From NCBI RefSeq assembly GCF_024323335.1, contig NC_066580.1, forward strand, positions 259,515,332 through 259,579,331: a DNA stretch of 64,000 nt. Direction: 5' to 3'. The notes beneath the pieces are model-generated. The model did no database searches. It had not been told where the DNA came from and saw only the letters and a program-made list of their open reading frames with translations. This stretch comes from Lathyrus oleraceus (lineage: Eukaryota > Streptophyta > Magnoliopsida > Fabales > Fabaceae). Made by a program: the position numbers and the translations under genes. Of this stretch, positions 2,006 through 60,870 are shown one piece after another; position 1 is the first letter of the stretch; each line of letters begins with the position of its first letter.

Positions 2006-5000
2006 TGTAGCGGGGTATTCGTTACCATTAGAGATATTGACTAAATCTAAGGTAAACCATACAAGTCGAGTCGCCACCGCACTTCTATTTATCCAAAGGA
2101 ATGTTTAGAAAGCGAACAAAAACCTAAAAGTTTTATCGAATCAAAAACTAGTAAAAATGTCAGGGATCTGGGTAAGGGGGTTGGTTATGCAATAGGAAGG
2201 TTTTAAGCACCCAAAACATCCTAGGTACTCCTAGGGAGCCCTTTTCACACTTGTTGTAAGGTTGGTATTTTGTGAAAGTTTATTTGTGCAAACATGATTG
2301 AAGAGATGAGAAGAGAATATATTTACATTTTGTGTTTGGATGGATAAACCCATTGCCTACGTACCATCTTAAAAAAGATTAGGATCAAAACCTCGTAGTT
2401 CGGGGTAAAAATCTCAAAAAAGTTGGTGAATTGATTGGTCCAAAAGCCTTAAGGTCTTTTGTTATCCAAGGGAGAAAACTCAACCTAAAACCACAAATCC
2501 ACCATGTGAGGATAGCTTCAACATGCTAGTGAGGGGTTAACCCTATAATAAGCATGGAAGACTCATTGTCCATCACTTAGGATATAGGTGAGTATTACAT
2601 CTACCTCAAGGATAACTCAAACCTAATAGCTAAAGGTTATGAAAAGTTTTGATTAAGAAAGTGGCCATTGAAACCACAAAAAGAGTATTTGAATGAGTGG
2701 TATTTACCAATGAAAAGTATTTACAAAATATGGTCAAAGTTGACTTAAAGATTCAATTCAAAATAAGTGTTATGAAAAGAAAGTTTGAAAATCAAAAGCA
2801 TAAGGCTTAGGTTTCTAATTTTTAGAAAGAGGTGTTAGATGTTTGCACAAAAGTTTTGGCTTGGGTTAGAGTGGAAGGAAGAAGAAGAATGGCTAAGGTC
2901 CTAATAATACAAGAGATGAGGGATAAGAAACAAGACCACAAATGGAGTTCCTCTCTTGAGATCATATTGATGATCCAAGTAGCTCTCATCCTTTGGAATA
3001 TGCAAGCAAAATAAGTGTAAGCTCAAGCAATCAACATAATCAAACAAGCTCTTAGAAGATCCCCAATGTCTCTTGTATCTAGCACTTTGGGTGAACATGG
3101 AAATGGTTCTTCAATTTGAACTCTCATAGGATTCCCTAGCACAAAAGCACACACATCAAAGAGTTTTATGAAGCAAATCAAGAATGGACAAGAGTGAGTT
3201 TAGAGGTTTGGTCCTTCTAATCCATCTTCAACAATCAAGGTCCTTTTTACTCCAAATTTGCATAGGGAATGTCCTAGAAACTAAGTCCATTTGCCCATTT
3301 CTTTGCATTTGGTCCACAACAATCAAAACAAAACACAAACACAATAATATATACACAATTATGTGCTCAAGTGAGCAAAAGGAAAATTGCATTAACATAA
3401 ACATGTGCTCAAATGAGCAAAGGGGGAAAAGCAAATGAATAATATGTACAAGAATATTAAATTGCATAAATGTAAAGTGCAAGAATTAAATGTTAATAGT
3501 TAATGGTTAATATTAGTAGCTAGTGTGCCATAAGGCAAATTTAGCGTTATGTTAAGCAATCGTAATTGGACTTATGTAGAAGTCACAACTATCTGAGGCC
3601 GGTCAATAATAATGTAGGCAACAACACAAGTTAGAGGTCTTGATTAGTAAATCAAACTCCAACAACTTGCCATGCCAAAAAGAAGGTGAGAAATGATCTT
3701 GTATTGATTTAGGTCCTTTGCATGATTTAGGAAGCAATCTATCCTTAATGCAAAGCCATTCACTTGATCCATGATCAAGATGAATTAGATTTGAATCAAG
3801 GAAGATTAAACCTCCCTAATCAATGCTAACCACCAATCTTTAACTCATTGATAAAAAAAAAAGAAAAAGAGGAAGAAGAAGAAGAATATGAAGAAATAAA
3901 GTGCATTAAATGAAATGGAATGAGATAATCATCAAGCCATGACCAAAGATAGAGAAGATCAAGGTCAAATAATAGAAAACAGAAGCAAAATGAGAATTAG
4001 AAGTCAAGAAACAAATAAAATATTTTTTTGGCATTTTTTAATATTAAAATAAAACTTGAATTAAAATAATAAAGAAAGGTCAAACTTCAAATTCACTTCA
4101 AATCAACTTTAAAAAGTCCAAGTAAATTATCCCGAGTTCAACAAGGTCAAACAAAGTTTGACAAATAATTTCAGCATTTTTAAAAGTCAGAAACTATTTT
4201 AAATCAATAAAAAATGTATAAAAATAACCTAATTGAACTAAAATCTCAAATAAATCTCAAATCAATTAATAAATTAATGAGAATATTTTTCATAGATCCA
4301 TCATCATTCAAAGAGGTTGGAAAAATATTTTTGTATTTTTTGAATATCAAAAACTATTTAAAATGATCTAAAAATAACCAGAAAAAAGAAAATTACTAAA
4401 AAATATCAAATGATAAAATAAAAAATATTAAAAATCATTTTTAGAAAGTAGAAATTAAAAGGAGAAGAATGAAATTGGTCCCATAATTTTTGGACCAATA
4501 ATGAGAGAGATATGAATTTTAGAAATAAAATGGAATTAAAAGAAATAAAAGAAATTAAAATCAGAAATTAAAATGTTAAAAAAATGTGGAGCGTTGGATG
4601 AAGAGCTCATTAATTGAGCTGACACATCACATGGCTCCTGAGCGCGCGCCCACCAAACACGTGAGTCAATGCATCACACACAGCCTTTAATTGAGTCATA
4701 ACATTGAATGGCCATGATCAAATCTGGAAATTGAAACGCACGGCTGTGATTCAATCTGGAGACCAGACGGTGACCAGCCCCACCGTCTTCTCCGGCCAAC
4801 TTCCGGCCAAACTAGAATTTGCAGAAATTAAAACATCAACCAAAATGCACGATCCAGGTACCATTCGAAAGCTAGGGTGATGTACATCACCCCTGTGCCA
4901 CTCAATTCCACTCTAGATCTCTAGATTGAGAGAAATCAGAGGTGGAAATTCTGTGGTGTTCAAGTGAACTTAATGATTTTCAAAAATTGAAAGCATAACA

Positions 5001-6654
5001 ATGTTACCTCTATGCAAAGGACTTCAGATCACACAAGAACAAAGCAAATAGAGCAATATAGAAGCTGGTTCAAAGCAAATAACAATTGAAGTAAACCTTT
5101 GAATTGCAAGGATTTGAGTCAAGATCTTTGGATTCTTGTGCAAACAGTAAGCACTATGGATTAAGAGGAGAAGGTTTAGGAACTTTGAGATCTGAAGATT
5201 GATCAATGAAATCAAAATTCAGATCTGAAAAATTGAAGAGAAATGAGATAGTTCCTTTAATGAGGTTTGAGTTTTGAGTTCAGCAGCAATTGGGGCGCCT
5301 TAAGGTTGAAGAAATGAGAGGCCAGGGAATTGTATTTATAGTTGAAGGGAGGTGCAAGCATGAGCAAAGTGTGTGCATGGATGGAAAGGGCCTCCATGAA
5401 TGGGCCTGTACAGGCGCATGGAGGGCCCAATTCCACCTGGTTTGGCAAGCTGAGATCACAATTAGATGAAATGGTCGTGCAAAATGGATGTAATCAGCTC
5501 ATGCAATGTGTTTTCAATTGGTTTCCAAAAATGCACCTAATCTTTCCCCTCTTCGAAAATGATACTTCCAAACAGAAAACATAGCCTTATGGGTAATGGT
5601 TGGAAAGCTTATTGCATAAGGAACAAATGTCATGTTGATTAAAACTCCATTTGGGCCTTAGAAATTAATGAAAATTGAACTTGGAGTGTAGGGTGCAAAA
5701 CATGCATATGTGAAATTTTCAAAATTGGCCAATGTTCAAGCCCTTCTGTCTTAATGATGCAAGCTCCAAATGGCAAAATATTCAACATTAAAGTTGTAAA
5801 TCTTTTCAAGTCAATCAACTTGGACTTATATTTTGCATAATTTGGATTTTTTATGAAGAAGTTATGGGAACTTGAAGTTGGACTTTTTCACATTTTAATG
5901 CATTTGGTCCAAAGTGACCTATAATGTTTTGCATTATCACATGTATTTCTTTTGAGATTTTTCAATTTTACTCAACATAACATTTGAAGTACACATCTTA
6001 AGATTTCCAATTCATTTGGTCTCACCTCGAAATCATAAAAAATGAATGAGGTATGTCTTTGGGAAGTTGACCCTAAATTAGGGTTTTAATCAAAATGACC
6101 TATAATGTCTTGGAATGGATGATGACCTTCCTAGCTTCAAATCAATTTTTGATGAACATGAAAGTTGTTCACATGGTCCTTAACAACAGGTTTTATCTTG
6201 GAGTCATCTCTATTTGACCAACACATGAAAAGTTAGGTCTCAGGGTATTTCAAAATAGTCAGATGAATTGACTGATCAACTTCTCAAGTCCAAAACTCAT
6301 ATCTTGATGAATTGATGATTGAGGACACTCAAATAAGTTCAAATATGCATGAAATGATGAATTAAAGAACTTCCATTAATTGTATTTGACCATGGGTTGA
6401 GGTTGCTTCATGAGCAAGGCATAGTTGATGATCAAATGAATTAAGGTTTCCTTGGGAAACAAACCTCAAACCCTTTGATTTGCTTTGATCAAAATGATGA
6501 ATTGAGACACTTGGGAGACATATTTGATGGATGGGAGCTTTGGATCTTATGATTGCTCAAGCTACAAACAAGAGATGCTTATGATCCTTGAGGCAATGCA
6601 AATGCAATGTTATGATGCCATGAGGGATCTTAAGGTCAAAATTAGGGTCTTACA
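2006..6654 (-). mobile_element. Solo Ogre LTR (LTR1), minus strand, inside gag of P
   Basis: A 4649-bp sequence that begins TGTAGCGGGG and ends GGGTCTTACA on the plus strand, so in its own sense it reads TGTAAGACCC to CCCCGCTACA with TG...CA ends. It is flanked by gtatg (2001-2005) and atatg (6655-6659), a 5-bp target duplication with one mismatch, and the host gag frame reads straight across it. No PBS, PPT or internal region is attached, so it is a solo LTR left by LTR-LTR recombination. It is homologous to LTR2 (8450-13114) and LTR3 (13865-15575). Contents are AT-rich (4000-4600 especially) with only random short ORFs; I see no gene. Confidence 0.9.
2220..2405 (-). promoter_or_regulatory. 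Conserved LTR structure modules in LTR1
   Basis: Two modules found in every Tat/Ogre LTR here. Read on the minus strand, 2405-2354 carries GAACTACG, a TTTTGAT bulge, a hairpin (ATCTT/AAGAT) and TACGTAGGCA, so CTACG and CGTAG can pair. Then 2235-2220 is CCTAGG-AGTA-CCTAGG, a 6-bp stem with an AGTA loop, followed by the conserved GGGTGCTTAAAACCTTCC. The AGTA hairpin lies about 215 nt before the LTR end. Function is unknown. Confidence 0.6.
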
Positions 6655-6659
6655 ATATG

Positions 6660-8449: not shown

Positions 8450-8662
8450 TGTAGCAGGAAATTCATGATCATCAAGTTGTTGACAAGCTAGAGATCAATT
8501 AACAAGATTCGCCACCGCGCTTTTATTGTTTCCAAGGGAAAAAGGAAAAAGTACGAACAAAACTCAATAAGTAAGAAGTTTTCAAATAAAAATTAATAAA
8601 AGTCAGAGATCACAGGTAAGGGGGTTGGTTACACAGAGGGAAGGTGTTAGCACCCAAAGTGT

Positions 8663-8846
8663 CATAGGTACTCCTAGGGAGCCCTTTTTGTGTGCATATG
8701 TATTTTGTACAAAGTGATGTTTACAAACAAATAGAATGGGGGGATGAGAAAATAATTCATTAATTATATTTTTGTGTTTGACAAGACCTTCGGTCTTGTG
8801 CCTACGTACCAACATAAAAATGAGGGATCAAAACCTCGTAGTTCGT
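8663..8846 (-). promoter_or_regulatory. Conserved LTR structure modules in LTR2
   Basis: Same pair of modules as in LTR1. On the minus strand, 8846-8799 carries GAACTACG ... TTTTGAT ... TACGTAGGCA (inner stem weak here, CAT/ATG within CC/GG). At 8678-8663 is CCTAGG-AGTA-CCTATG, the AGTA hairpin with one mismatch. An extra perfect 8-bp hairpin, ACAAGACC-TTC-GGTCTTGT, lies at 8781-8799 and is peculiar to this copy. The distance from the AGTA hairpin to the LTR end is 213 nt. Confidence 0.55.
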
Positions 8847-13864: not shown

Positions 13865-15575
13865 TGTAGCGGGGTTTTCGTTACCTTTAGGTTAATTGAC
13901 TAAACCAAAAGTCAACATACAATTCGAGTCGCCACCGCACTTTTGTTTATCCAAAGGAAAGGCTAAAAAGTGAACAAAAACCAAGTAAGAAGTTTTTCAA
14001 ATAAAAAACTAATAAAAAAGTCAGAAATCTAGGTAAGGGGGTTGGTTATGAAATGAGAAGGTTTTACGCACCCAAAACATCCTTAGTATTCTAAGGGAAC
14101 CCTTTTTGCAAATATGTGTTGTAGGTTGGTATTTGTGAAAAGATTTGTGCAAAAGATTGGAGGGATGAGAAGAGAATAGATTATATTTACAAATTTTATT
14201 GTTTGAATGGATGAACCCATTGCCTACGTACCATTACAAAGGAGGATCAAAACCTCGTAGTTCGGGGTAAAAATTTCAAAGATTGGTGAATTGATTTTAA
14301 TCAAAAGCCTTAAGGTCTTTTGTTATCAAAGGGAGAAAACTCAACCTAAACCAACAATCCATCATGCGAGGAAGGCTTCAACATGCTAGTGAGGGGTTGA
14401 CCCTATAATAAGCATGGAAGGCTTATAATCCAACAGTAAGGATGAGGTGAGATTTACATCAACCACTATGATAACTCAAACCTATGACTAATGTTTTTGA
14501 AAAGAGTTTAACAAGTGGCCATTGGAACCACAAAACAACTTGAAATGGGTTATATTTACAAGTTGAATTTATTTACAAAATGAGGTCAAAGTTTGATTAA
14601 AGTTTATTTACAATGAGTATTTATCAAAATGGTTTTGAAAATTCAAAGGCCTAAGGCCTAGGTTTCTAATTTGAAATAAAAGTCAAAGTTTTTGAAAATG
14701 ATTGTTGGCTTGGTTATAGGGGGAGAGGAGAGAAGGGCTATTCCTAAAATATACAAAGATAAGAGGGGAGAGATAACCCTTGAAGTTCCTTTTCTTGAAG
14801 TCATAGAGATGACTCAAGATGCTCCTTTCCTTTGGATTTAGCACACAAAGCAAGCAATCAATAATTTGAATTCAAGCTCCTAGGATTTCCATTTGGCTCT
14901 GCTTTTAACTTGGCTACTCATGGCAATGGTCCTCTTTTCCCAATCTTAAGATGAGATTCCTATCACTTTTCAAAGTCAGATGACTTGACTTGTCAACTGT
15001 TCAAAGTCAAACTTCCAATCTTGATGAATAAATGTTTGAGGGGCCTCAAATAGGCTCATATATGCATAAAATGAGATATGAAAGAACTTCCCTAGATTAA
15101 ATTTGATCAGGGGTTGAGATTGCTTCATGAGCAAGGCACAGTCAAAGCACAGTGAAATTAGGGTTTCCTATGGAAACAATCTTCAATCCCTTTGGGTTAT
15201 CTTGATCAAATTGGAAAATTGAGATACTTGGTAGACATATATGATGGTTAGGAACTTTGTAGACCATTGTCATGCTTTTTCTCATCTTCATCTAGCCATT
15301 GTTGGGCTTAGGAGCCTCCTACGAGCATTGTGGAGCACATGATCACTTGAACTTCAAAACAAAAAGAGTTAGTGACATATTTTTTTGCTTTTGGTTAGTA
15401 ATAAAATAAGAAAAGCAATAACATACAATACAAGCATGCTTGTTGATCTTAAATCACTCAAACAAGTCCCAACCCTTGGGTTAAGGAGCTAAACATGCTA
15501 TGATCCTTGAGGCAATGCACTTGTGCAATAACATGATGCCATGAGGGATCTTAGGGTCAAAATTAAGGTCTTAAA
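13865..15575 (-). mobile_element. Ogre element B: 3' LTR (LTR3), internally deleted
   Basis: It starts TGTAGCGGGG and ends GGTCTTAAA on the plus strand, where the terminal CA of the family has become AA. Both ends align with LTR1 and LTR2, but the length is 1711 bp instead of about 4650, so roughly 2.9 kb is missing from the middle (junction near 14940-14970). The sequence to its right is the B PPT and 3' UTR, so this is the 3' LTR of the minus-strand element B, which landed in the A 3' UTR. The 5 bp before it are catat; the matching copy at the other end of B was not found because the 5' end of B is broken. Confidence 0.82.
14081..14267 (-). promoter_or_regulatory. Conserved LTR structure modules in LTR3
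   Basis: On the minus strand, 14267-14221 reads GAACTACG ... TTTTGAT ... TACGTAGGCA (outer stem perfect, inner hairpin weak). At 14096-14081 is CCTTAG-AATA-CTAAGG, a perfect 6-bp stem whose arms differ from those in LTR1 at both sides, a compensatory change. It sits 216 nt from the LTR end, as in LTR1 and LTR2. Confidence 0.58.
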
Positions 15576-16701: not shown

Positions 16702-16703
16702 AT

Positions 16704-23559: not shown

Positions 23560-23564
23560 AAAAT

Positions 23565-40270: not shown

Positions 40271-40626
40271 CTATATTCATAGACTTTAGTGCAATTCGAA
40301 TCGAGCGATTGGTAAGGTCTTCATCATCACTACAAGAAACAACTACAAAGACTCTTATCTCTCCCCTTGAAGTTTAAGACGAGAGTTATATGCCACGAGC
40401 CTTAAGTGGTAAAGAAGGAATGAGACTAGAGCTTTCCTACACTCATTCTGGATATCTTTGGGTGTGAGACATTTGGCTCGTTTCTTATCGTATCCATCTT
40501 TACCCATAGACTTTAGTGTGATTCTCATCCAGTAACTATCAAGTCTCTCCATTCCATTCAAATCATTCCAATTCAATCATTCCATTTCTTTTGCCTCTAT
40601 CACCTTCTTTTCATCCCTAGTGGGCT

Positions 40627-41973
40627 GAACTACGAAAGCTCTGATTTCCTTATTTCACTATAAGGATACATAGGCAGGAGAACTCAGTTCTTCGTGAGCT
40701 ACCCTATTTATTAAGCAATCATTCTCCATTCATTCAATCAATACCATCTTTTGAGATCAATCATACTTCTCCTTGGACTCCTTGTCTATCCTTTTAGGAC
40801 GTCTTGACGACATTCCACCTCCTCAATCGAGAGTTGTTTGGCCCTTAACCCAAACATTTAATTCATTATTTTTCGTCTAACACGCCACTTTGCTCTTCGA
40901 TTAAGAGTTTATTCCTCCCTTAGATCCAAGACATTATCCTGATTTGATCTCGAATTCTCGTTTCCCCAGCAAGTGATATACTACTCCTTGCACTCCAGTA
41001 CTGCAATCCTTCCCTGAAGATATATTTGTCTTGTGAGTCCCCGTTGCTTAGACAAATATATGTCTCTCTCTATTCTCGTAGTTCCGAACTACGATTGCTC
41101 TGATTTTCTCATTGCACAATGAGAATACGTAGGCACGAGGATGCGAATCCTTGGCGAGCATACTTCTACTTATTCCTCCTTTGCCTTAGGGAATCATCCA
41201 TATCTTTCATTATTCATTGGCGACCTTCGATCACAAATCGTTCACCTAGTGACATACTATCGCTTTGACATTGAAATACACTTTCTTTGGGATTCCATAT
41301 ACACCCTTTTAGGACGCATAACGAATAGTTCACATCTCTACCTAAAGTTGTTTGGCCCTTAACCCAAACATTTAATTCCTTCTTTTTTAACTAACACCCT
41401 ATAGTGGCGGTCTCCTAGTCCACATATCGGTTAACGCTGTTTCCCTCTATGGTAGAAATGTCATTGGTCTTATGGAATCCAATACACTTTCATCTTTCGA
41501 TTTCAAGCAATACTTCTTCAGTTTTTTATCTCCAGATACTCTATTCTGTGACTTTGGTCACTTCACTCCTGCCTTAGGGCATTTCCCCGTTCATCTCACA
41601 ATGCACTCATACTCTACCTTCATTCACTTCATGTGATATACCTATTCTTTGAGCCAAATATATTGTACCTTTGTGCTCCGTCTTGTACCTCCTTGTGACC
41701 CAAGAGTTGTTTGGACCTTAACCCAAACACCTAATTCCTCTCTTATTTCGGTTGTTTCGATACAGTGATACAGCGCTGTAGGCCCTCACTTGTTGGTTCA
41801 TAACTGTTTACTCTTGGGTTCATTGTTTCATACTTGTTGGAGTTCAAATCATATAATTATTTGATTCAGACCAAACCCTTGATCACACTTCTTTCCACCT
41901 CCTGCCTCTAGTTCCTTGAACTACGAAGCTCTGAGTTACTCATTGCACTATGAGGATAAGTAGGCATGAGGGC
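40627..41973 (+). promoter_or_regulatory. Three copies of the GAACTACG module in E
   Basis: Copies at 40627-40677, 41085-41157 and 41918-41973. Each has GAACTACG, GCTCTGA(T/G), an inner hairpin and a TA(C/A)(G/A)TAGGCA-like end. Inner stems differ but pair: TCCTTAT/ATAAGGA, TTCTCAT/ATGAGAA and CTCAT/ATGAG. The outer CTACG/CGTAG stem is perfect in the second copy and has one mismatch in the others. Confidence 0.6.
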
Positions 41974-42076
41974 CCCAATCCTCACCGAGCACTTTATATA
42001 TTTCTTTCCTCTTCACATCCTTTACCGAGTAATCTCTAGTTAACACCTATTCGAGCGAGAACAATCAAAACGGTTC

Positions 42077-42130
42077 CCATGGAGTACCATGGATGTTTGG
42101 GGTGCTAATGCCTTCCCTTTGCATAACCGA
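42077..42130 (+). promoter_or_regulatory. AGTA hairpin module in E
   Basis: CCATGG-AGTA-CCATGG (42077-42092), a perfect 6-bp stem with AGTA loop, followed by ATG-TTTGGGGTGCTAATG and then CCTTCCCTTTGCATAACC. It is the same module as in LTR1-3 and D with a different stem sequence. Confidence 0.62.
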
Positions 42131-44011
42131 TTTCCTTACCCAGTATATCTTTTTCCCCTGGGTTTTATCGATGTTTTCCCTTCCCTTTGGGGATAAATAA
42201 AGTTCGATGGCGACTGTTGAAGCACATCAAATTTGCACCTCCCATTTTGTACATTCATTTTCATATTAGGTCATTAACATTACATTGTCCACTGCATTGC
42301 ATTGCATTGTCCATTTGCCCAAGTGCAAGATCATCAGTCAAGACTGGTCAGGAGATCTAGTCAAGCAAGCAAGCAAGTGCATATCCTATTGAAGCAAAGC
42401 CCTATCGTTGGTTCATCAAGTTCATATGACCTAGGGATCATTTTGAAGTGGTTTGGCCAAAGATTGGATGATCAAAGCTCAACAGTCAAGCTGAATTTCA
42501 TCTGAAACCCTAGAAAGTCAATTGTGGTCAACTGTGCCTGAAATCAAGGATTTGAAGGTGGGAGATGGTTTGAGAGGTCTCATTCATGTCCATACAAGTC
42601 TCATTTGACATGTCAAACATCATCATTGAAGAATTTGAGGTCAAATGAAAAGTTTCCAAAAATAGTAAGTGACCTGTAATTTCAAACTGCCAAAAATGGA
42701 AAGGTCTTCTCCTCATATTTACATCATCATACAAGCTTCAAATGGAATTTTGTCCAACATGAAAGTTGAAGGTATTGCTCTCAACTTTCCAAAAAGTCCA
42801 AGAATATCCATTTCTCATTTGTGGTTGGCAAGTTATGATCAAATCATTGTCAAGAAATTTTGAACTTCAAACTTGGATAACTTTCACACCATTTAGCCAA
42901 ATTGAGTGGGGTTTTTTGCTACAATCTCCATTTGACATGCTCTATCCAAATTATTCATTGCATTTCATCAAAACTCATCACACAAAAATGGCATTTTTCA
43001 TGTGGCTTGAATTTGAAAAAGGGAGGGAAAAAAGTCCATTTCAAAACTATGCATTTGCCACACTTCTCACCACTTGAATTTGATCTAAAAGCACATTTGG
43101 AGTGTTTTTAGTAAGAAATCTGTGCACTGTAGCAGCTCATTCCACACATGAAGGTTATTTTGGCCAATTGCACATAAAAACTCATTTCACTAATCACTTT
43201 GATTTTGGCTAAGCTTGATTAACAAAAGGATTAACAACACCTATACATTCCTAATCCTAACTGAATTCATGATTAACATTCATTCTTGCTCAGATCTAGA
43301 TCAAAAAAGTGAAAAATCTCCAAAACTTCCTCTCCATTTTTCTGCAAAAATCTTCATAGAACTTGCATTGATCTTCGTTGTTCCAACATACACAAGCCTT
43401 TTGGAAGTGAATTGAAGCCAGGGATCACCATTTTCGTGTTGTTTTCTTGGACTGTTACATTTAGCATTTTGATGGCAGTTGGAAATTTCTTCGAATTCAA
43501 GTTGTGTTGAGCTGAAGTCTTGCTTCCATACATTCATCCAAGCAACATAGGACATCTGTTTCACGCTTCCAGGCTTTGAATCCAACAAATCGGCTGCTGC
43601 ATCTTCATAGAGGTAAGAACTCGATTACTCCAATTCTCACAATTATCATGTGGTTCTTGTAGATCTTAGCATGTAGATCATTCTACAATTTAGATCATTA
43701 AATTTCATTAAGTTTGGAGCAAGTTATGTGGATTCGAATCTTGGATGTTGTAACTTATTTGGATCGGTTCTTGTGATGTGGTTAGAGTTAGAACAAATCA
43801 TTGCTAGATTATTGATGTATGATGAAGGCTGATTCGATTGACATAAGTTTCATGAATTTCTGTGGAGTTTTGTTCTTGACCTTGATGAACACGACGAATG
43901 TTGCTTGAATGTCTAGGTTTTCGTTTTCCAACACTGCTTTGATCCATTCGCCCGTGTGTTTGCATGAAATTTTCTGTTTGTGAGCCATGCGTCCAATAGC
44001 ATCATGCCACG

Positions 44012-44044
44012 CACTTAAGTGAAACTCAGCATTTCACTTAAGTG
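44012..44044. repeat. 33-bp palindrome in the D 5' LTR (decayed copy)
   Basis: CACTTAAGTGAAA and TTTCACTTAAGTG form 13-bp perfect arms around a 7-nt centre. The 3' LTR version (57934-57966) is perfect over 16 bp per arm with a single central base. Confidence 0.8.
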
Positions 44045-46220
44045 GCGCCCTATTTGAAAACGCACGCAGCTCGAATCCTGGCTCCAACGTTCTTTCATTT
44101 TGGCTTTGCATTATTCCTCTTGTATTCAACCATGTTCATATACACTTGTTCCATTCATTTTTTATTTTTTCTCACATTAGAAATTAATATCTCAATGAAT
44201 ATTTGTCCAATTAACATGAGGTTTTTCCCATGATGATCCTTGCCACGTCTACTATTTTATGATGATTTTTGCAAAAATGGTGCACGTGTGGATTTCTGTT
44301 TTGGCTAGGGTTTATGTGAACATGTCATTTGTTGCACCTTGTTTACCATTTTGATCATGAAATGATGATGCTTAATCCAAAATTCTTGAAATTTTATGTG
44401 TAAACTAGACACCTTGAGGAGCATTTTGGTATATAGTTTGTGATTTTTGCATTCCTGGTTTGTGAGATATGACCTGATCATTGGAGGTGTGACAATGTGT
44501 GTCGCACCATTTCTTGTCCAATTTGTGGAATTTCATTACCATGCCATATGAACTCAAAATGATCTGAATTTTTGCATGTTGAATCTTCTGGATGTTATGT
44601 TTAAATGTGAAATTTTGTGGATTTTTTTAGTGCATTTCCAATTTGATTGAGGTTTTCTTCCCTGTTTGACCAAATGTGAACTTTTTGTGAATCATGATCT
44701 CATTTGATTTGTGAAATTCTTATTGTTTATTGGATGGACTTAAAATTTTGCATGTGTGTTCTAGACATCTTGAAGTGTGTCATGGCTTTGATTTGGTTCA
44801 TTTATCTTATGCCAATTCTGTTTTGTGCTTGCTTGAAGTTGATGCATGATTTGGTGCCTTGTATGAGCTTGTTTGAACATGCTTTGACTTGATGAATTTA
44901 ATTGACTTGCTTCCCTTGGTCCAAATTACTTGAAATTTGGTGTGTAGGTCATGCTATGAATTCTGTTTGACCATGAATTTTTTGGTGATTTATTAAATTG
45001 TTTGTGAGTTGATTTGAATTGAATCATTCTGTTTGGTCCTATGAGGTTCTAAATTGCATGCTTTGTACTCTTTGCCTTATGAAATGATATTGGTTGATGA
45101 TATGAATGTGAGACCACTTGTATTTGATTCTTATTTTATTGATCTTGATTTTTGATAAGTTTCATGTTCTGTTTTGGTTTATTGCTCCCATTTTGACCCT
45201 AGGCCAAGTCCTAGTGGTTACTGCCTAATGTTTGAGCTTTGTTTCAGGTCAAAGAGCACAATTGCTTATGCTTGATGATGTGCACTCAATTGGAGTTGGT
45301 TTATTGCTTGTTTATGGCTAACCTTGAGTTTACTTTGTAGGCATTGAGACTTATGCTTAGGCCTTGTGGCTTGCACCTTTGTGCATTGATGCTTGTTATC
45401 TGTTTGTGCTGTGGACTTGTAATTGTCTGTTTGCCTTTTGTTTGAGCTGAGTACTGATTATGTTGGATTGATTTCAGGTACCTTAGTTGCTATAGTTCCT
45501 TGAGAACTTGCTTTTGCTTTGCTTGCTAGCTTGAGCATTGAGGTATAATGATCTCTTCTCCATGTAGTCTGGAAGACCTGGCCTGTTACTTGGCCAGGCA
45601 CCTGTCTGAAGTCCTCCTTAAGAGGCAATGCTTGTGCTTGTTTATTTTTGTGCCCAAGCAGGAAAAGACCTTTGATAAGGCAATTGGAAGATACAAGAGA
45701 TGTGCAATCCATCTCCTGCTATTCTGTTGAGTCGTCCCTCTGCTCACACCACTGTGTTGATGCATTGTGGACATTAACCCAAGATCCTTGTACAGTTGTA
45801 CAGTTGAGTCAGTGTCATAAGTGTAGAAGAGTTCCCACTTTCTGAACCCACACTTCTTTTGTCTAAAGCTCTCCCAGGCCAGGGATAAGAGCTGTGAAGT
45901 CTTATCTTCACTTCCCATTTCATCTGCTTCACCCTAACTCTAAAGTTTAGGGTTAAGAGCTAACATCACCTGATTCCAGTTGGCTTGCCTTTGCAGCCTA
46001 ACCCTTGTTTGAGCCCCACTTTGTGTGCATATAGTGTGTGCTATTTGTGATTGTTTGCTTTTGCCTGTGCTGTATAGGATAGCTTGCTCCCTGTGCAAGT
46101 TAGATAGCAACCTTAACTTAGGGATGATTTGCATGATAACATCTAGGCTCGAGTCGTAGTCTCCCTAGTTGTGTCTCCCTCTGTTATCTGGTTAGGCTAG
46201 TCCTTTGTCCCTGCGTAGGG

Positions 46221-46945
46221 GAACTACGTCGCCCTGATCCTCATACCAGATGAGGTACGTAGGCAGGAGATGAGCAGATCTCTCCGGGCGCCCTTTTATT
46301 TTGTTTGTGTGAGTTGTTTCTCCTTTTCTGGTTGGAGTCCGATGTAAGTCCAACGATTGGCATTCGGTTTCCAGATTCTTTGTTGGAGTCTGACGTAAAT
46401 CCAGCGATTGGCATTCGGTTTCCAGTTTCTTTGTTGGAGTCTGACGTAAGTCCAACGATTGGCAGTTGGTTTCCTGTGTGTGTTTGTTGGTTCGGAGTCT
46501 CATGTAAGTCCAGCGATTGGCATTCGGTTTCCATGTTTGCCTGTTTGTGTGGAGTTTGACGTAAGTGCAGCGATTGGCAGTCGATTTCCCGTGTTGTTTT
46601 GTTTGGCGTGCGTGAGCCGAGCTACGGATGCTCTGATTCTTCTCTAGTCCGAGGAGATACATATGCATAGGATGCGATATCCTAGCGAGCATGGTTTTTC
46701 CCCCCGTCCGAACTACGTCGACTCTGATGTCTATGCCTGATAGACTACGTAGGCCCAGGATGCGATATCTGCCGAGTCAATTTCGTTTGTTTTCTTGTGT
46801 CAGTTTCGTTTGTTTTCTTGTGTCTCTTTCAGCCTGTGTAGATGTTTGTTTGAGCAGTGTTTTAGCAACCATATTCCTTCCTTTTGTGCGTGGATCCCGT
46901 CGAGTACGACGGATGCGTAGGGGTGCTAATACCTTCCCTTCGCAT
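46221..46945 (+). promoter_or_regulatory. Conserved LTR structure modules in the D 5' LTR
   Basis: Three GAACTACG-type modules: 46221-46270 (inner stem CCTCAT/ATGAGG, outer CTACGT/ACGTAG), 46617-46690 (TCTTCTC/GAGGAGA, outer stem weak) and 46709-46776 (GTCTAT/ATAGAC, outer CTACGT/ACGTAG). The last two are followed by GGATGCGATAT. The AGTA hairpin CCGTCG-AGTA-CGACGG follows at 46897-46912, then GGGGTGCTAATACCTTCCC and GCATAACC. It lies 183 nt from the LTR end. Confidence 0.62.
46331..46600 (+). repeat. Five-fold 50-62-bp repeat in the D LTR
   Basis: Five imperfect units, each with GGAGTCTGACGTAAGTCC and GCGATTGGCA followed by a GGTTTCC box. They start near 46331, 46382, 46432, 46494 and 46550. 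The same array is in the 3' LTR (about 60255-60515). Open frames on the minus strand over it only reflect the repeat. Confidence 0.8.
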
Positions 46946-47097
46946 AACCGACTCCCGATCCCATTCTCTTTGGTCACGAGACCATGTTCTTTCCAGGTTT
47001 ACTTCGAGCGTTTCCTTTCCCTCTTTTGGGATAAATAACGCACGGTGGCGGCTCTGTTGTTCTGTTTTCCCGCCGGTTTTTCGCGTAATGCGACAGC

Positions 47098-49522: not shown

Positions 49523-51930
49523 GTTGTGGATAAAGTCGTGCGTACCAGGCAACTGGAAAGCCTCCAAAAGCATCACTGTCGCTCATCCTGAAGTGTAGAA
49601 TTTCTGTTTTTCAATTTTTGTTTGCATGAAAGCCATACGTTTTTCCCGAAACGTAATGGTCCATTGTAAGGGCCATCTCTTGTGTTTCATTGTGCAACAT
49701 TTTGCATCAGTAATAAATGGATGTTTTTGTGATTAAAAGCGGTGTTCCCTGTTTTTCATTTATTTTTGCAGTTTAAGAAATAAAAATGGAAATGTTTATT
49801 TTCATTTTTTTTTCCTTTTGATTCGTCTTGTTCCGACCTCAAAAGTGATTATCCCCCTGATCTCATTGATAACAATTCGGTTACACCTTTGAATGACTTC
49901 GACAATCCGCTCTATCATGCCGAAGAATAAGGAGAAGAAGATTGTGATCTGCTGGAATTAGCCAGAATGTTAAGACAAGAGGAAAAGGTGATTCAACCGC
50001 ACAAGGAGAGGTTCAAGATTGATACTCCAGACACCGCCGAGGTCAGCAAGTGAAAATTAAGGCCACTTCAGAGGCGAGTCGGGGGCAGAATGGTAGCCCT
50101 GTTGAAAGAGCATGTGGATACCCTCGCCTGGTCGTATCAAGATACACCAGAGTGGAATACCAATGTTGTGGTGCACGAGCTACCATTGAGAGGACTGTCC
50201 TCCCGTGAAACGGAGATCGGTGTTGAAAAAGGATGATAAGATGAGAATGTGTGTGGTCTGCTGAGACGTGAATAGAGCTAGTTCGGAAGATGGATTCCCG
50301 GTACTTCACATTGATGTATTGGTTGATAGTACAGCTCAATTCTCGGTGTTTACCTTCATGGATGGCTTTCTGGCCAAAATCAGGTTGAATTGTTGCCAGA
50401 TGATATGAAGTCAATAATGTCCATCACACCAAGGAGCATCTTCTTGTTATAAGGTGTTGCCATTCAGCCTCGAAAGGCCGGTGCCATGTATCAAAGGTCC
50501 AAGGTGACTTTGTTTCATGATATGACTCATCGTGAAAGCAAATCCCATGTTGAGGACATGATGACAACGTCCCAAACGAGAGAGGGACATCCTGTAAACG
50601 TGATCAAGATGTTTGACAGGTGGAGATAACTCAGACTGTTGAGTCCGAATCGGTGCACTTATGGAGTGTTGTCCGGCAAGCTGTCGAGGTATGCTGTGAA
50701 TGAAAGAGGAATCGAGGTTGGTCCTGTAAAAAAAAAAAAAAAAAAAAAAGTTATAAAGGAAAACGATGCAAGAAATACCTGAACCGAAACAAAAAAAAAA
50801 AGAGAGATCAAACGGTCAGGTAGGATAATGATTGCCAAGGGGCATTTGAAAAACAAAAAGAATAAGTTGCAGGAACTTCTGATTCTGTTAGTCTGGTACT
50901 GGACAGCCCTCGAGGGGTCTATGAGGTGCGTATTGTGTCAGCATGACGAGTCTTGTCGAAAAGAGCATGCAATTTACCTTAGCAAAAAGTTTATCGACTG
51001 TGAAACAATACACTCACTGCTCGAAAAAAACTTGATGTACTTTGGCATAGGCTGCTCGCCAACTGAGACAGTATGCTGGTTCATACCACTTTGTGGATGT
51101 CCAAGATGGATCTGATCGAGTATGTGCTTGAGAAGCTAGCATCGACTGGATGGGTTGCGAGATGGAAAATACTTCTGATCGATTCATGATATACAGCCCA
51201 GTGATGATTATCAACCCAGGAAGTTTGAGCTCCCTGATGAGGACATCTCGAGGTACTCAAATCGAAAGATTGAGAGTGACCGATCCCGGAGGAGGGGCCT
51301 GACCCTGAATCAGAACGGATTCTGATGTCTGATGGGGAGAGTTTAAAGTGAATGAGTTAGTGCTTCCCCGATAACATTTGAATGCACCAACGTTGGTGGC
51401 CGAGTACGAAGTTGGCATCCTGGGTACCGAACCGCGGTGCGTGCATCTACTGGGGCAACGTCTTTCTCATTCAGTATGGGCTGGAAGTGATATTACCTAC
51501 TGATATTATCTACTGAAGTCTAGGTCCCATTGTGAAGAGCCCTGATGGATGAAATTAGAGAAGGCTGAGTAGATGAGGACTCGGTATGACGCGTTGAGCC
51601 TGATTGAGGAAAAAGAGGCTAGCGGTTACTTGTCATGGGGCAGTTGTACCCAGTGAACGAAGCGTGTCGTTGACCGAAAAGTGTGACCTCGTGCGTATCA
51701 CCTGGGAGATGTGGTGTTGAAAAGGATCCTTCCTCCTCAAGACGATCGTGGGGCAAGTGGATAAACAGTTATGAATGTCCATTCGTGGTCAAGAAGGTCT
51801 TCTACGGCAGAGCTTTGTTGTTGACGACCACGGATGATGAGGATTTTCCATCCTCTGCGAAGGCAGACGCAGTTAAAAGATACTTCGTGAAAAAGCTGAC
51901 CCGCTGGACAAAAAGAATAAAATAGTCCAG
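49523..51930 (+). pseudogene. Element D: decayed and deleted pol
   Basis: Fragments of Ogre pol in several frames. About 49930-50040 matches the acidic lead-in (LARMLRQEEKVIQPH). 50090-50230 matches the segment before RT (KEHVDTLAWSYQDTP). 50230-50700 is RT, with HIDVLVDSTAQFSVFTFMDGF; the YVDD position reads H-V-E-D. 50880-51110 is RNase H (MRCVLCQHDESCRKEHAIY). 51460-51900 is the integrase C-terminus. The second RNase H is reduced and the integrase core is absent. A run of about 20 A (50728-50748) and another A-run at 50791-50802 interrupt RT. There are many stops and indels, so no function remains. Confidence 0.82.
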
Positions 51931-55115: not shown

Positions 55116-55239
55116 TGATGAGTGTTTTGGAACACAAACCAATCCACGTTTTGGTCGGCCACCTTTTTCATGCCTACAACCCGACATCCTTGGTGTTCCT
55201 TCCTGTCTGCTCCCTGTCGTGAGCTTGATCCCCAGTGAG

Positions 55240-56470
55240 CTACTTCTCCGTTGGTTTCGATAAACGTCGAGTTTTTCCTAGTTATACGTTGATATCTAGT
55301 TGTATCTCTGTCACAGGTCATCCGTTGATGCCAGCTCCTCCTCTCCGTTGGTGTCGATAAACGTCGAGTTTTTCCCAATCGTCCGTTGACGTTTGGTTGA
55401 GTCTTGTTCTCTCTCCCCAGTAGAGTACCTCTCCGTTGGTTTTGGTAAACGTTGAGTTTTTCCCGATCATCCGTTGATGATTTGGTTGTGTTCATTATCC
55501 CCAATAGGGGTTACCTCTCCGTTGGTCTCGAAAAACGTTGAGTTTTTCCTATGCGTCCGATGACGTATAGTTGCTTATTCCCCACAGATCATTAGTTAAT
55601 GGCTGTTGATTCCCCCCAGAGTTACCTCTCCGTTGGTCTTGGTAAACGTCGAGTTTTTCCCGATCGTCTGTTGACGGTTGTTGGTGATATATTTCCCCAT
55701 GCAGAGTTACCTCTCCGTTGGTCTCGGTAAACGTTGAGTTTTTCTCATTCGTCCGTTGACGTCTGATTGTGTATCCTATTCCCTAGTCATTCGTTAATGT
55801 CTGGTTGCTTCCCAGCCAGAATCCCTAGTAGAGTCGTCGGTGGACGTCCTATTCAGTTTCCGGTTGTTATACCCCTTCCTTAGTGAAGTGGCTTCTCCTT
55901 CTCCGTTGGTGTCGATAAACGTCGAGCTTCTCCCGTTCGTCCGTTGACGTCTGGTCGAGTTTTCTCCTTCTCCGTTGGTGTCGATAAACGTCGAGCTTCT
56001 CCCGTTCTTCCGTTGACGTCTGGTCGAGTTTTCTCCTTCTCCGTTGGTGTCAATAAACGTCGAGCTTCTCCCGTTCGTCCGTTGGCGTCTGGTCGAGTTT
56101 TCTCCTTCTCCGTTGGTGTCGATAAACGTCGAGCTTCTCCCGTTCGTCCGTTGACGTCTGGTCGAGTTTTCTCCTTCTCCGTTGGTGTCGATAAACGTCG
56201 AGCTTCTCCCTTTCGTCCGTTGACGTTTGGTCGAGTCTTCCCATTCATCCGTTGATATCTTGTTACCTCTCCGTTGGTCTTGGTAAACGTCGAGTTTTTC
56301 CTGATCGTCCTTAGTTGAGTTACCTCTCCGTTGGTTTTGGTAAACGTCGAGTTTTTCCCACTATGTCCGCTGACATGTGGTTGTATCTCTTCCAGTCATT
56401 CATTAATGTCTGGTTACCTCTCCGTTGGTCTCGGTAAACGTTGAGTTTTTCCTAGTCGTCCGTTGAGGTC
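55240..56470 (+). repeat. Satellite-like array in the D 3' UTR (69-bp core)
   Basis: Five nearly identical 69-bp units start CTCCGTTGGTGTC at 55901, 55970, 56039, 56108 and 56177. More degenerate, irregularly spaced units flank them (55246-55860 and 56262-56470). Each has CTCCGTTGG, AAACGTCGAG and CGTCCGTTGACG. Because 69 is a multiple of three, both strands show open 23-residue-repeat frames over the array, which I take as a by-product. Tandem arrays in Tat/Ogre 3' UTRs are known sources of legume satellites. Confidence 0.88.
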
Positions 56471-56699
56471 TAGTTGTGATTCCCATTCCCATTCATCGTG
56501 TTGTGATTTCTGGATGTGACTGTACCTTTGAAAAAAAAAAACCCAAATTCCTCAGTAATAAGGATCAGATCCCAGTGGACGTTTCAGTTGGTGGATCCCC
56601 GCATTGTGCAAATTTCTACGGTTCTTCGGAATTCAATCCCTGTTTACCCTGAAAGTCTGACAGCCGTTGCTCTCATCCATTCGGGTTCCCAGTTGATTG

Positions 56700-56711: not shown

Positions 56712-57933
56712 TGTAGCACCTAATATTTGCACCTCCCATTTTGTACATTCATTTTCATATTAGGTCATTAACATTACATTGTCCACTGCATAGCATTGCA
56801 TTGTCCATTTGCCCAAGTGCAAGATCATCAGTCAAGACTGGTCAGGAGATCTAGTCAAGCAAGCAAGCAAGTGCATATCCTATTGAAGCAAAGACCTATG
56901 GTTGAATCATCAAGTTCATATGATCTAGGGATCATTTTGAAGTGGTTTGGCCAAAGATTGGATGATCAAAGCTCAACAGTCAAGCTGAATTTCATCTGAA
57001 ACCCTAGAAAGTCAACTGTGGTCAACTGTGCTTGAAATCAAGGATTTGAAGGTGGGAGATGGTTTGAGAGGTCTCATTCATGTCCATACAAGTCTCATTT
57101 GACATGTCAAAGATCATCATTGAAGAATTTGAGGTCAGATGAAAAGTTTCCAAAAATAGTAAGTGACCTGTAATTTCAAACTGTCAAAAATGGAAACGTC
57201 TTCTCCTCAAATTTACATCATCATACAAGCTTCAAATGGAATTTTGTCCAACATTAAAGTTGAAGATATTGCTCTCACCTTTCCAAAAAGTCCAAGAACA
57301 TCCATTTCTCATTTGTGGTTGGTAAGTTATGAGCAAATCATTGTCAAGAAATTTTGAACTTCAAACTTGGATAACTTTCACACCATTTAGCCAAATTGAG
57401 TGGGGTTTTTTGCTACAATCTCCATTTGACATGCTCTATCCAAATTATTCATTGCATTTCATCAAAACTCATCACACAAAAATGGCATTTTTCATGTGGC
57501 TTGAATTTGAAAAAGGGAGGGAAAAAAGTCCATTTCAAAACTATGCATTTGCCACACTTCTCACCACTTGAATTTGATCTAAAACCACATTTGGAGTGTG
57601 TTTAGTAAGAAATTCATGCACTGTAGCAGCTCATTCCACACATGAAGGTTATTTTGGCCAATTGCACATAAAAACTCATTTCACTAATCACTTCGATTTT
57701 GGCTAAGCTTGATTAACAAAAGGATTAACAACACCTATATATTCCTAATCCTAACTGAATTCATGATTAACATTCATTCTTGCTCAGATCTAGATCAAAA
57801 AAGTGAAAAATCTCCAAAACTTTCTCTCCATTTTTCTGCAAAAATCTTCATAGAACTTAACATTCATTCTTGCCCGTGTGTTTGCATGGAATTTTCTGTT
57901 TGTGAGCCATGCGTCCAATAGCATCATGCCACG

Positions 57934-57966
57934 CACTTAAGTGAAACGCAGCGTTTCACTTAAGTG
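57934..57966. repeat. Perfect 33-bp palindrome in the D 3' LTR
   Basis: CACTTAAGTGAAACGC, one central A, then GCGTTTCACTTAAGTG: 16-bp arms, perfect. The inner CACTTAAGTG is itself palindromic. It lies 62 bp after the filler junction of the deletion. Confidence 0.9.
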
Positions 57967-60144
57967 GCGCCCTATTTGAAAACACACGCAGCTCGAATCC
58001 TGGCTCCAGCGTTCTTTCATTTTGGCATTGCATTATTCCTCTTGTATTCAACCATGTTCATATACACTTGTTCCATTCATTTTTTATTTTTTCTCACATT
58101 AGAAAATTAATATCTCAATGAATATTTGTCCAATTAACATGAGGTTTTTTCCATGATGATCCTTGCCACGTCTACTATTTTATGATGATTTTTGCAAAAA
58201 TGGTGCACGTGTGGATTTCTGTTTTGGCTAGGGTTTATGTGAAAATGTCATTTGTTGCACCTTGTTTACCATTTTGATCATGAAATGATGATGCTTAATC
58301 CAAAATTCTTGAAATTTTATATGTGTAAACTAGACACCTTGAGGAGCATTTTGGTATATAGTTTGTGATTTTTGCGTTCCTGGTTTGTGAGATATGACCT
58401 GATCATTGGAGGTGTGACAATGTGTGTCACACCATTTCTTGTCAAATTTGTGGAATTTCATTACCATGCCATATGAACTCAAAATGATCTGAATTTTGCA
58501 TGTTGAATCTTCTGGATGTTAAGTTTGAATGTGAATTTTTGTGTATTTTTTTAGTGCATTTCCAATTTGATTGAGGTTTCCTTCCCTGTTTGACCAAATG
58601 TGAACTTTTTGTGAATCATGATCTCATTTGATTTGTGAAATTCTTGTTGTTTATTGGATGGACTTAAAATTTTGCATGTGTGTTCTAGACATCTTAAAGT
58701 GTGTCATGGCTTTGATTTGGTTCATTTATCTTATGCCAATTCTGTTTTGTGCTTGCTTGAAGTTGATGCATGATTTGGTGCCTTGTATGAGCTTGTTTGA
58801 ACATGCTTTGACTTGATGAATTTAATTGACTTGCTTCCCTTGGTCCAAATGACTTGAAATTTGGTGTGTAGATCATGCTATGAATGCTGTTTGACCATGA
58901 ATTTGTTGGTGATTTATTGAATTGTTTGTGATTTGATTTGAATTGAATCGTTCTGTTTGGTCCTATGAGGTTCTAAATTGCATGCTTTGTACTCTTTGCC
59001 TTATGAAATGATATTGGTTGATGATATGAATGTGAGACCACTTGGATTTGATTCTTATTTGATTGATATTGATTTTTGATAAGTTTCATGTTCTGTTTTG
59101 GTTTATTGCTCCCATTTTGACCCTAGGCCAAGTCCTAGTGGTTAGTGTCTAATGTTTGAGCTTTGTTTCAGGTCAAAGAGCACAATTGCTTATGCTTGAT
59201 GATGTGCACTCAATTGGAGTTGGTTTATTGCTTGTTTATGGCTAACCTTGAGTTTGTTTTGTAGGCATTGAGACTTATGCTTAGGCCTTGTGGCTTGCAC
59301 CTTTGTGCATTGATGCTTGTTATCTGTTTGTGCTGTGGACTTGTAATTGTTTGTTTGCCTTTTGTTTGAGCTGAGTACTGATTATGTTGGATTGATTTCA
59401 GGTACCTTAGTTGCTATAGTTCCTTGAGAACTTGCTTTTTCTTTGCTTGCTAGCTTGAGCATTGAGGTATAATGATCTCTTCTCCATGTAGTCTGGAAGA
59501 CCTGGCCTGTTACTTGGCCAGGCACCTGTCTGAAGTCCTCCTTAAGAGGCAATGCTTGTGCTTGTTTATTTTTGTCCCCAAGCAGGAAAAGACCTTTGAT
59601 AAGGCAATTGGCAGATACAAGAGATGTGCAATCCATCTCCTGCTATTCTGTTGAGTCGTCCCTCTGCTCACACCACTGTGTTGATGCATTGTGGACATTA
59701 ACCCAAGATCCTTCTACAGTTGTACAGTTGAGTCAGTGTCATAAGTGTAGAAGGGTTCCCACTTTCTGAACCCATACTTCTTTTGTCTAAAGCTCTCCCA
59801 GGCCAGGGATAAGAGCTGTGAAGTCTTATCTTCACTTCCCATTTCATCTGCTTCACCCTAACTCTCAATGTTAGGGTTAAGAGCTAACATCACCTGATTC
59901 CAGTTGGCTTGCCTTTGCAGCCTAACCCTTGTTTGAGCCCCACTTTGCGTGTATATAGTGTGTGCTATTTGTGATTGTTTGCTTTTTCCTGTGCTGTATA
60001 GGATAGCTTGCTCCCCGTGCAAGTTAGATAGCAACCTTAACTTAGGGGTGATTTGCATGATAACATCTAGGCTCGAGTCGTAGTCTCCCTAGTTGGGTCT
60101 CCCTCTGTTATCTGGTTAGGCTAGTCCTTTGTCCCTGCGTAGGG

Positions 60145-60870
60145 GAACTACGTCGCCCTGATCCTCATACCAGATGAGGTACGTAGGCAGGAGATGAGCA
60201 GATCTCTCCGGGCGCCCTTTTATTTTGTTTGTGTGAGTTGTTTCTCCTTTTCTGGTTGGAGTCCGATGTAAGTCCAGCGATTGGTATTCGGTTTCCAGTT
60301 TCTTTGTTGGAGTCTGACGTAAGTCCAGCGATTGGCATTCGGTTTCCAGTTTCTTTGTTGGTGTCTGACGTAAGTCCAGCGATTGGCAGTTGGTTTCCTG
60401 TGTGTGTTTGTTGGTTCGGAGTCTGATGTAAGTCCAACGATTGGCATTCGGTTTCCATGTTTGCCTGTTTGTGTGGAGTTTGACATAAGTCCAGCGATTG
60501 ACAGTCGATTTCCCGTGCTGTTTTGTTTGGCGTGCGTGAGCCGAGCTACGGATGCTCTGATTCTTCTCTAGTCTGAGGAGATACGTATGCATAGGATGCA
60601 ATATCCTAGCGAGCATGGTTTTTCCCCCCGTCCGAACTACGTCGACTCTGATGTCTATGCCTGATAGACTACGTAGGCCCAGGATGCGATATCCTGCCGA
60701 GTCAGTTTCGTTTGTTTTCTTGTGTCAGTTTCGTTTGTTTTCTTGTGTCTCTTTCAGCCTGTGTAGATGTTTGTTTGAGCAGTGTTTTAGCAACCATATT
60801 CCTTCCTTTTGTGCGTGGATCCCGTTGAGTACGACGGATGCGTAGGGGTGCTAATACCTTCCCTTCGCAT
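60145..60870 (+). promoter_or_regulatory. Conserved LTR structure modules in the D 3' LTR
   Basis: Second copy of the modules at 46221-46945. The GAACTACG units are at about 60145-60194, 60541-60614 and 60633-60703. The AGTA hairpin is at 60822-60837, here CCGTTG-AGTA-CGACGG: the C-G pair of the 5' LTR has become a T-G (U-G) pair, so pairing is kept. It lies 183 nt before the LTR end. Confidence 0.6.

Follow-up and report, generated by a model that had tools for sequence, protein, structure and literature searches.

Candidate cis-acting RNA structures, a hairpin pair and a nested pseudoknot, in long terminal repeats of likely Tat/Ogre type from Lathyrus oleraceus

Tat/Ogre elements, which are long terminal repeat (LTR) retrotransposons, constitute large parts of many plant genomes. 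Ribozymes of the hepatitis delta virus (HDV) type fold into a nested double pseudoknot. Folded RNAs are also described for several retroelements. Opening of the TAR hairpin of human immunodeficiency virus type 1 (HIV-1) is tied to RNA dimerization and packaging (PMC3432602), a pseudoknotted RNA termed the MusD transport element (MTE) is needed for nuclear export of the mouse LTR retrotransposon MusD (PMC5767303, PMC12786077), a 5' pseudoknot of Ty1 is required for transposition (PMC5767303), and plant retrozymes carry hammerhead ribozymes in their LTRs (PMC4918200). Benachenhou et al. (2013) present LTR models with AATAAA and TATA landmarks, discuss conserved stem-loops in long R regions, and state that plant Metaviridae could not be modelled, because their LTRs are too variable in length (PMC3601003). 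Here we analyse LTRs in a 64,000-nucleotide (nt) stretch of Lathyrus oleraceus DNA (contig NC_066580.1, positions 259,515,332 to 259,579,331), which is referred to as the window. A preliminary description of this window had proposed that a 16-nt covarying hairpin (H1) is present in six LTR copies, termed LTR1, LTR2, LTR3, E, and the 5' and 3' LTRs of element D (D5 and D3). This hairpin is accompanied by a second hairpin, H2, and by a larger pseudoknotted element, H0, both of which had been overlooked. All results given below come from this single window, which contains five families for H1-H2 and nine distinct copies of H0.

Covariation in H1, H2 and H0

All six H1 hairpins are found where they had been placed (Table 1), those of LTR1, LTR2 and LTR3 when the minus strand is read. 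Their independence does not stand. D5 and D3 are the LTR pair of a single insertion, which is flanked by the target duplication ACTGT and nested within the LTR of E, and therefore the six copies represent five families. LTR1 and LTR3 are moreover 77% alike. For the same reason the C/T difference between D5 and D3, which gives D3 a G-U pair that had been counted as evidence, arose after the insertion and is not evidence of selection. The distance from H1 to the LTR end is fixed within each family, as described earlier (214, 213 and 216 nt in LTR1, LTR2 and LTR3, and 183 nt in both D LTRs). The CC...GAGTAC...GG frame of H1 is constant, and its middle three pairs vary yet stay paired. The single mismatch known from LTR2 is a C.U, and the 24-nt segment of LTR2 is the only one of six that does not fold as H1 alone. 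When the window is searched with CCNNNGAGTACNNNGG, allowing at most one mismatch, seven matches are obtained (the six H1 copies and one at 47580), against 1.3 expected by shuffling.

H2 adjoins H1 on its 3' side. The block GGGTGCTAA...CCTTCC...CATAACC, which had been regarded as a constant sequence following the loop, is indeed shared and is itself a hairpin, with an outer stem AUGC/GCAU (ACAC/GUGU in LTR2) and an inner GGG/CCC stem. The pattern GGTGCTAANRCCTTCC with at most three mismatches gives six matches in the window, four of them exact (LTR2, E, D5 and D3) and two elsewhere with three mismatches; LTR1 and LTR3, with one extra base, escape this pattern. None of the six LTRs has H1 without H2, and in every one of them an H0 is located upstream of H1, the nearest at 83-189 nt. 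In the window, the covariance model for H1+H2 scores its six source copies at 76.8-83 bits and the next best site at 10.4 bits. Thus H1 does not stand alone, and its surroundings are not as hard to align as had been stated: the LTRs also have in common H2, H0 and, further downstream, a block resembling GGATAAATAA...CGGTGGCGACTC.

The covariation of H1 was analysed on A1, in which the ends of the six LTRs are aligned, that of H1+H2 on a short alignment (A3), and the permutation tests and tree-based null were run on five of the six LTRs, with D3 dropped. In A1, H1 ranks first among 8,428 ungapped helices of 6 base pairs (bp); 97% of its cells are paired and two-sided change is seen at three pairs, in agreement with the earlier statement that the arms differ yet pair. 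RNAalifold selects H1 and H2 from A1 unaided. In A3, 96.4% of the H1+H2 cells are paired and six of the 14 pairs show two-sided change. Covariation scores 0.519 here, whereas shuffles score 0.213 +/- 0.046 (none of 500 as high) and slid controls at most 0.148. H1 requires five two-sided changes on the tree, and a null in which the 3' arm is given the observed number of changes, placed at random, equals the observed pairing in one of 200,000 runs. When the arms of H1 are swapped among the five LTRs, 325 of 20,000 permutations are as good. The 84 cells of H1+H2 comprise eight G-U pairs (one of them, in D3, post-dating the insertion), no A-C and three other mismatches. The presence of G-U and absence of A-C fit an RNA read from the sense strand.

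RNAalifold also proposes a long-range stem enclosing H1-H2 (A1 columns 58-64/181-187; for example in LTR1, LTR3 and D), which comes second in the helix scan and in which many pairs are constant G-U. In 2006-2260 and comparable stretches ahead of the LTR ends, single-sequence folds place the downstream AATAAA-like signal within a hairpin (H3) in LTR1, LTR2 and D, and when a longer sequence is folded in E and D. H3 is not significant, since 1,494 of 20,000 permutations are as good, and it is missing from the fold of LTR3.

H0, which was first spotted by reading and then modelled from 11 copies, lies upstream of H1, is 68-80 nt long and has the arrangement GAACUACG-nn-PK-UGAU-hairpin-UACGUAGGC-hairpin-PK', where PK and PK' are the strands of the pseudoknot. 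Twelve copies are present, one in each of LTR1, LTR2 and LTR3, three in each D LTR and three in the present part of E. The covariance model finds these 12 in the window at 57.5-79.7 bits, followed by a site of 12.9 bits. Helix P1 (CUACG/CGUAG) is constant except for mismatches in E_a, E_c and D_b. Each of the nine distinct copies has its own P3 helix, and each of the eight that form P2 (all except LTR3) has its own P2 helix. The pseudoknot strands are of four types (GCUC/GAGC, GCCC/GGGC, ACUC/GAGU and GUUU/AAAC) and are complementary in all 12 copies at offsets 18-22 past the constant stem.

The permutation and scan tests for H0 were done with nine of the 12 copies, the D3 copies being dropped as near-duplicates. 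Of the 651 offset cells scanned, the pseudoknot site alone pairs in nine of nine copies, and its strands are of four types. The 11 further cells listed all overlap this site, and none exceeds seven. About 1e-4 cells of this kind are expected in the scan if bases are uniform. Strands of different type match in five of 54 cells, through sequence outside offsets 18-22, and GUUU can pair with the strands of other types as well when G-U is allowed. Upon exchange of 3' halves among the nine copies, the permutations as good as the observed arrangement number two of 20,000 for P2, one to 20 of 20,000 for P3, depending on segment length, and nine of 20,000 for the pseudoknot. These computations show that H1 and the hairpins and pseudoknot of H0 stay paired although their sequences differ, and they show this less strongly for H2. 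H1 and H0 are very probably conserved RNA structures, and H2 is probably one.

Several results weigh against this conclusion or against the placement of the structures that is given below. The sample is small, as five H1-H2 families and nine distinct H0 copies come from one window. The helix ranked second in A1 (columns 58-63/182-187, long-range) likewise has three pairs with two-sided change and is 92% paired, so that rank alone is no proof for H1. When 145-150 nt of context is folded, the minimum-energy structure includes H1 in three of five copies, and the z-scores of these folds (-0.71, -0.01, 0.41, -1.75 and -2.61) are unremarkable in LTR1, LTR2 and LTR3. For the outer stem of H2 alone, 4,043 of 20,000 permutations are as good as the observed arrangement, and for H2 chimeras 314 of 20,000. 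P1 of H0 loses at least one pair in the three copies named above. With one copy per type, 839 of 20,000 permutations of the pseudoknot are as good, in a test whose floor is one in 24, and dinucleotide shuffling gives p = 0.24 for the pseudoknot, in 38-nt windows that afford little power. RNAalifold recovers only P1 from the MAFFT alignment of H0 (A2, 11 of the 12 copies, without D3_a, which is identical in sequence to D5_a), since this alignment does not bring the hairpins into register. D has no clear TATA box between H0 and H1, and an exact AATAAA is present downstream of H1 only in E and LTR2, with variants elsewhere.

Placement in the LTR, possible roles and other explanations

A TATA-like run is located between H0 and H1 in LTR1, LTR2 and LTR3, as judged by eye, and in E (TATATA at -82). 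An AATAAA-like signal follows 120-150 nt downstream of H1, and then CGGTGGCGACTC. Because H1-H2 lies between these two landmarks, it is probably in R, and both termini of the genomic RNA would carry it. H0 precedes the TATA-like run and is therefore probably in U3, in which case the 3' LTR would be its only source in full-length RNA. This assignment, with borders of U3, R and U5 that we infer from the landmarks, is on balance the probable one.

We favour the reading that H1-H2 and H0 form a set of cis-acting RNA structures in sense-strand transcripts of LTR retrotransposons of the Tat/Ogre type, although our confidence in the whole of it falls somewhat short of even. H1-H2, which would lie at the 5' as well as the 3' end of the genomic RNA, would act as a packaging signal recognized by Gag or as a strand-transfer signal, by analogy with the hairpins in retroviral R regions; this role is tentative, and a little more doubtful than the reading as a whole. 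H0, supplied by the 3' LTR, would be a folded element for export or for stability of the 3' end, a role that is a guess from analogy. A bolder version, to which we give only a modest chance, is that the 3' part of a Tat/Ogre LTR may contain a conserved RNA module that outlives neighbouring sequence, with one to three nested pseudoknots of HDV-type strand order (H0) followed by H1-H2 in the R region, and that H0 may be a new, self-contained functional RNA of plant LTR retrotransposons that mediates export, blocks exonucleases or cleaves itself.

H1-H2, together with a possible third hairpin at the AATAAA-like signal, could instead serve 3'-end formation, by setting the site of cleavage and polyadenylation, so that the 5' copy of R is spared. 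The fixed distance between H1 and the LTR end within families, the position of the signal downstream of H1, and the folds that place this signal in a hairpin are all consistent with such a role. However, this third hairpin is the non-significant H3, which is absent from the fold of LTR3, and H1-H2 is more than 100 nt away from the signal. We consider 3'-end formation unlikely. A comparably low probability is assigned to the possibility that H0 is the functional core, as an RNA export, decay-blocking or self-cleaving fold, and that H1-H2 consists of helpers of the same 3' region and not of packaging signals. H0 is the larger structure, is pseudoknotted and is present in three copies each in D and E, and a pseudoknotted export element is known from mouse MusD (PMC5767303, PMC12786077). 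If it is in U3, however, H0 would not be part of the 5' end of the RNA, and H1-H2 accompanies H0 in all six LTRs, so that the two cannot be ranked from the window.

Still less probable is that the conserved feature is a DNA-level palindrome, such as the site of a dimeric transcription factor or of an integrase-linked protein, or a cruciform near the promoter. H1 is near the presumed promoter and keeps its frame constant, and H0 is also at the promoter, where it is repeated in the manner of an enhancer. A site read by a protein in DNA would not need the middle three pairs of H1 to be free to change as long as they pair, however, and the crossing pairing of H0 would not be selected in duplex DNA or in a simple cruciform. 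The G-U cells and the lack of A-C in H1+H2 also argue for RNA, whereas the same comparison within H0 (ten G-U pairs in the predicted P2 and P3 helices over the 12 copies, against C-A in P1 of E_a and D5_b) is not decisive. Shared ancestry of an old palindrome, with apparent covariation arising by chance from few sequences and from looking, is very improbable: the families are five, several tests are weak and the runner-up helix resembles H1 in its two-sided changes, but H1 alone needs five such changes, the tree-based null hardly ever reaches its pairing, and H0 provides independent signals in its nine-of-nine pseudoknot of four types and in the P2 and P3 permutations. The preference of the preliminary description for a functional RNA structure over an inherited palindrome is thus upheld by the shuffles, the slid controls and the tree-based null; its six independent copies, its G-U pair in D and its lone hairpin are not part of the case.

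Host elements, other features and searches beyond the window

The coordinates of the features are summarized in Table 1. D has an LTR pair, a target duplication, a sequence like a primer-binding site (PBS) 2 nt past its 5' LTR, and the polypurine tract AATAGGGGCAGC preceding its 3' LTR. No target duplication was found for LTR1 and LTR3, for which it was searched, and LTR2 has a single candidate, TACCA at 10155. The point of the nested insertion of D (42213-42217 / 61021-61025, ACTGT) is within a conserved GGTGGCGACT motif of the LTR of E.

Table 1. Features of the window. Strand is that on which the feature is read.
Feature	Position	Strand	Remark
H1, LTR1	2220..2235	-	
H1, LTR2	8663..8678	-	one C.U mismatch
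H1, LTR3	14081..14096	-	AATA loop
H1, E	42077..42092	+	
H1, D 5' LTR	46897..46912	+	
H1, D 3' LTR	60822..60837	+	
H2, LTR1	2187..2219	-	AUGU/GCAU, then UGGG/CCUA
H2, LTR2	8631..8662	-	ACAC/GUGU
H2, LTR3	14048..14080	-	weak, one U.U
H2, E	42093..42124	+	
H2, D 5' LTR	46913..46945	+	
H2, D 3' LTR	60838..60870	+	
H0, LTR1	2330..2402	-	PK GUUU/AAAC
H0, LTR2	8771..8845	-	PK GUUU/AAAC
H0, LTR3	14197..14264	-	PK GUUU/AAAC; no P2 fold predicted
H0 copy a, E	40626..40704	+	PK GCUC/GAGC
H0 copy b, E	41085..41164	+	PK GCUC/GAGC
H0 copy c, E	41917..41994	+	PK GCUC/GAGC; closest to H1
H0 copy a, D 5' LTR	46220..46293	+	PK GCCC/GGGC
H0 copy b, D 5' LTR	46618..46695	+	PK GCUC/GAGC
H0 copy c, D 5' LTR	46709..46782	+	PK ACUC/GAGU
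H0 copy a, D 3' LTR	60144..60217	+	
H0 copy b, D 3' LTR	60542..60619	+	
H0 copy c, D 3' LTR	60633..60707	+	
D 5' LTR	42218..47095	+	has about 578 bp that the 3' LTR lacks; PBS-like TGGCGACTCTGCTGGGGA next, at 47098
D 3' LTR	56712..61020	+	target duplication ACTGT
LTR-internal PBS-like motif GGTGGCGGCTC, D 5' LTR	47044..47054	+	after AATAAA-like signal
Counterpart of LTR-internal PBS-like motif	60969-60979	+	
Counterpart of LTR-internal PBS-like motif	42206-42216	+	
Counterpart of LTR-internal PBS-like motif	2068-2078	-	
Counterpart of LTR-internal PBS-like motif	8506-8516	-	
Counterpart of LTR-internal PBS-like motif	13926-13936	-	

A trait of Tat/Ogre elements is present in the window at 28703-30340(-), where RVT_1, RT_RNaseH and RVT_3 are above cut-off, that is, a reverse transcriptase (RT) with two RNase H domains. 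The LTR of the element that carries this RT is outside the window and is not one of the H1-bearing LTRs. The pol region of D is decayed; ten plus-strand pieces yield only RT_RNaseH, at 13.3 bits (below the cut-off of 24.8), and 50245-50525 of D aligns with RT sequence of the element at 28-38 kb, with 69% identity at the DNA level. DUF7745 is found at 62195-62728(-) and 62729-63514(-), in a neighbouring element and in neither D nor E. We take DUF7745, an extra open reading frame upstream of gag, to be an Ogre trait, and an RT with two RNase H domains to be a trait of Tat/Ogre elements. D, E and LTR1, LTR2 and LTR3 are likely to be of Tat/Ogre type, as judged from these sequence features.

The LTR-internal PBS-like motif matches the first bases of the PBS of D (TGGCGACTCTGCTG) at 12 of 14 positions in D5 and D3, 11 in LTR1, 10 in LTR2 and LTR3, and nine in E, with second-best sites of at most 7/14. 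In E the motif is split by D, and it matches at 12 of 14 positions when the empty site is rejoined. This motif may represent either an additional site for tRNA binding or an old PBS that was captured. The D LTR contains tandem repeats of about 80-100 bp (46331-46599, 60255-60527), which lie between copy a and copy b of H0, and a degenerate tandem-repeat array (55228-56490) lies a short way upstream of the D 3' LTR. The region 28910-38000 consists of two head-to-tail copies of a 4.55-kb segment with 99.8% identity (28910-33459, 33451-38000); either a Tat-like element has recently undergone an internal duplication, or the repeat is an artefact of the assembly.

The preliminary description had asked for a comparison with Rfam. 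The whole window gives no match at the gathering score, and the four matches obtained in 40500-47200 at E-values up to 10 do not fall at H0, H1 or H2. A hammerhead was rejected for H0, as there is no Rfam match; coding sequence was rejected, and so was the idea that the covariation stems from simple tandem duplication. In viral contigs, GGTGCTAAYRCCTTCCC gives 14 stretches, none with an adjoining H1, ATAAATARNNNNCGGTGGCGACTC and GGTGCT...CCTTCC...CATAACC give none, the RT protein gives three pattern matches with no relative among them, and the H0 pattern gives 20 stretches. In genome contigs, GGTGCT...CCTTCC...CATAACC gives ten stretches, none of them LTR-like. When the outside loci are scored with the covariance models, H1-H2 reaches at most 20.4 bits (24 loci) and H0 at most 19.3 bits (20 loci), far below the window copies (at least 57.5 bits), and these prokaryotic or phage-like loci are therefore set aside as chance. 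The LTR end of D has no match in plasmids and phages. A literature search, mostly without subscription papers, found no description of H0 or H1-H2, or of RNA signals for packaging, export or end formation in Tat/Ogre elements, and searching for the LTR motifs as letter strings returned only papers unrelated by title. H0 and H1-H2 appear to be cis-acting retroelement RNA structures that are members of no named RNA family, and signals for RNA control that have not been described before are probably present in the LTR ends; their role would be of the kind suggested by analogy above.

Comparison with known RNA structures

A covarying RNA landmark would help to align Tat/Ogre LTRs, to find the borders of U3, R and U5, and to study how the RNA of giant plant retrotransposons is handled, and a nested pseudoknot repeated in a plant LTR would be of interest to RNA structure work in itself. 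The TAR and poly(A) hairpins of HIV-1 resemble H1-H2 in that they lie between the transcription start and the poly(A) signal and are present at both RNA ends, if H1-H2 is placed as proposed here. They differ in that H1 has no sequence relation shown to them and no known trans-activator, and is a 6-bp tetraloop hairpin joined to H2 in plant elements of the Ty3/gypsy type.

For H0, one likeness in fold is to the HDV-type ribozymes. Its helices have the same strand order (P1-5', PK-5', hairpin, P1-3', hairpin, PK-3'), and a C precedes PK-3' in 11 of the 12 copies. In contrast to these ribozymes, P1 of H0 has 5 bp and follows a conserved GAA, neither a second short pseudoknot helix nor a constant P1.1 partner is seen in H0 by eye, and Rfam gives no match, so that the likeness is one of topology only. 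Plant retrozymes resemble the H0-bearing LTRs in having a structured RNA, functional in their case, in LTR-type repeats of plants; H0 contains CUGAU, but apparently without the remainder of a hammerhead core. The MTE of MusD is likewise a pseudoknotted folded RNA of an LTR retrotransposon. It consists of a kissing loop and a pseudoknot, as far as described, whereas H0 is shorter, is repeated, lies in the LTR and is known from sequence alone. Ty1 also has a pseudoknot in retrotransposon RNA, but Ty1 is of the copia type, its knot is near the PBS and not in U3, and no relation to H0 is shown. The LTR models of Benachenhou et al. (2013), like the placement proposed here for the H1-bearing LTRs, take AATAAA and TATA motifs as landmarks (PMC3601003).

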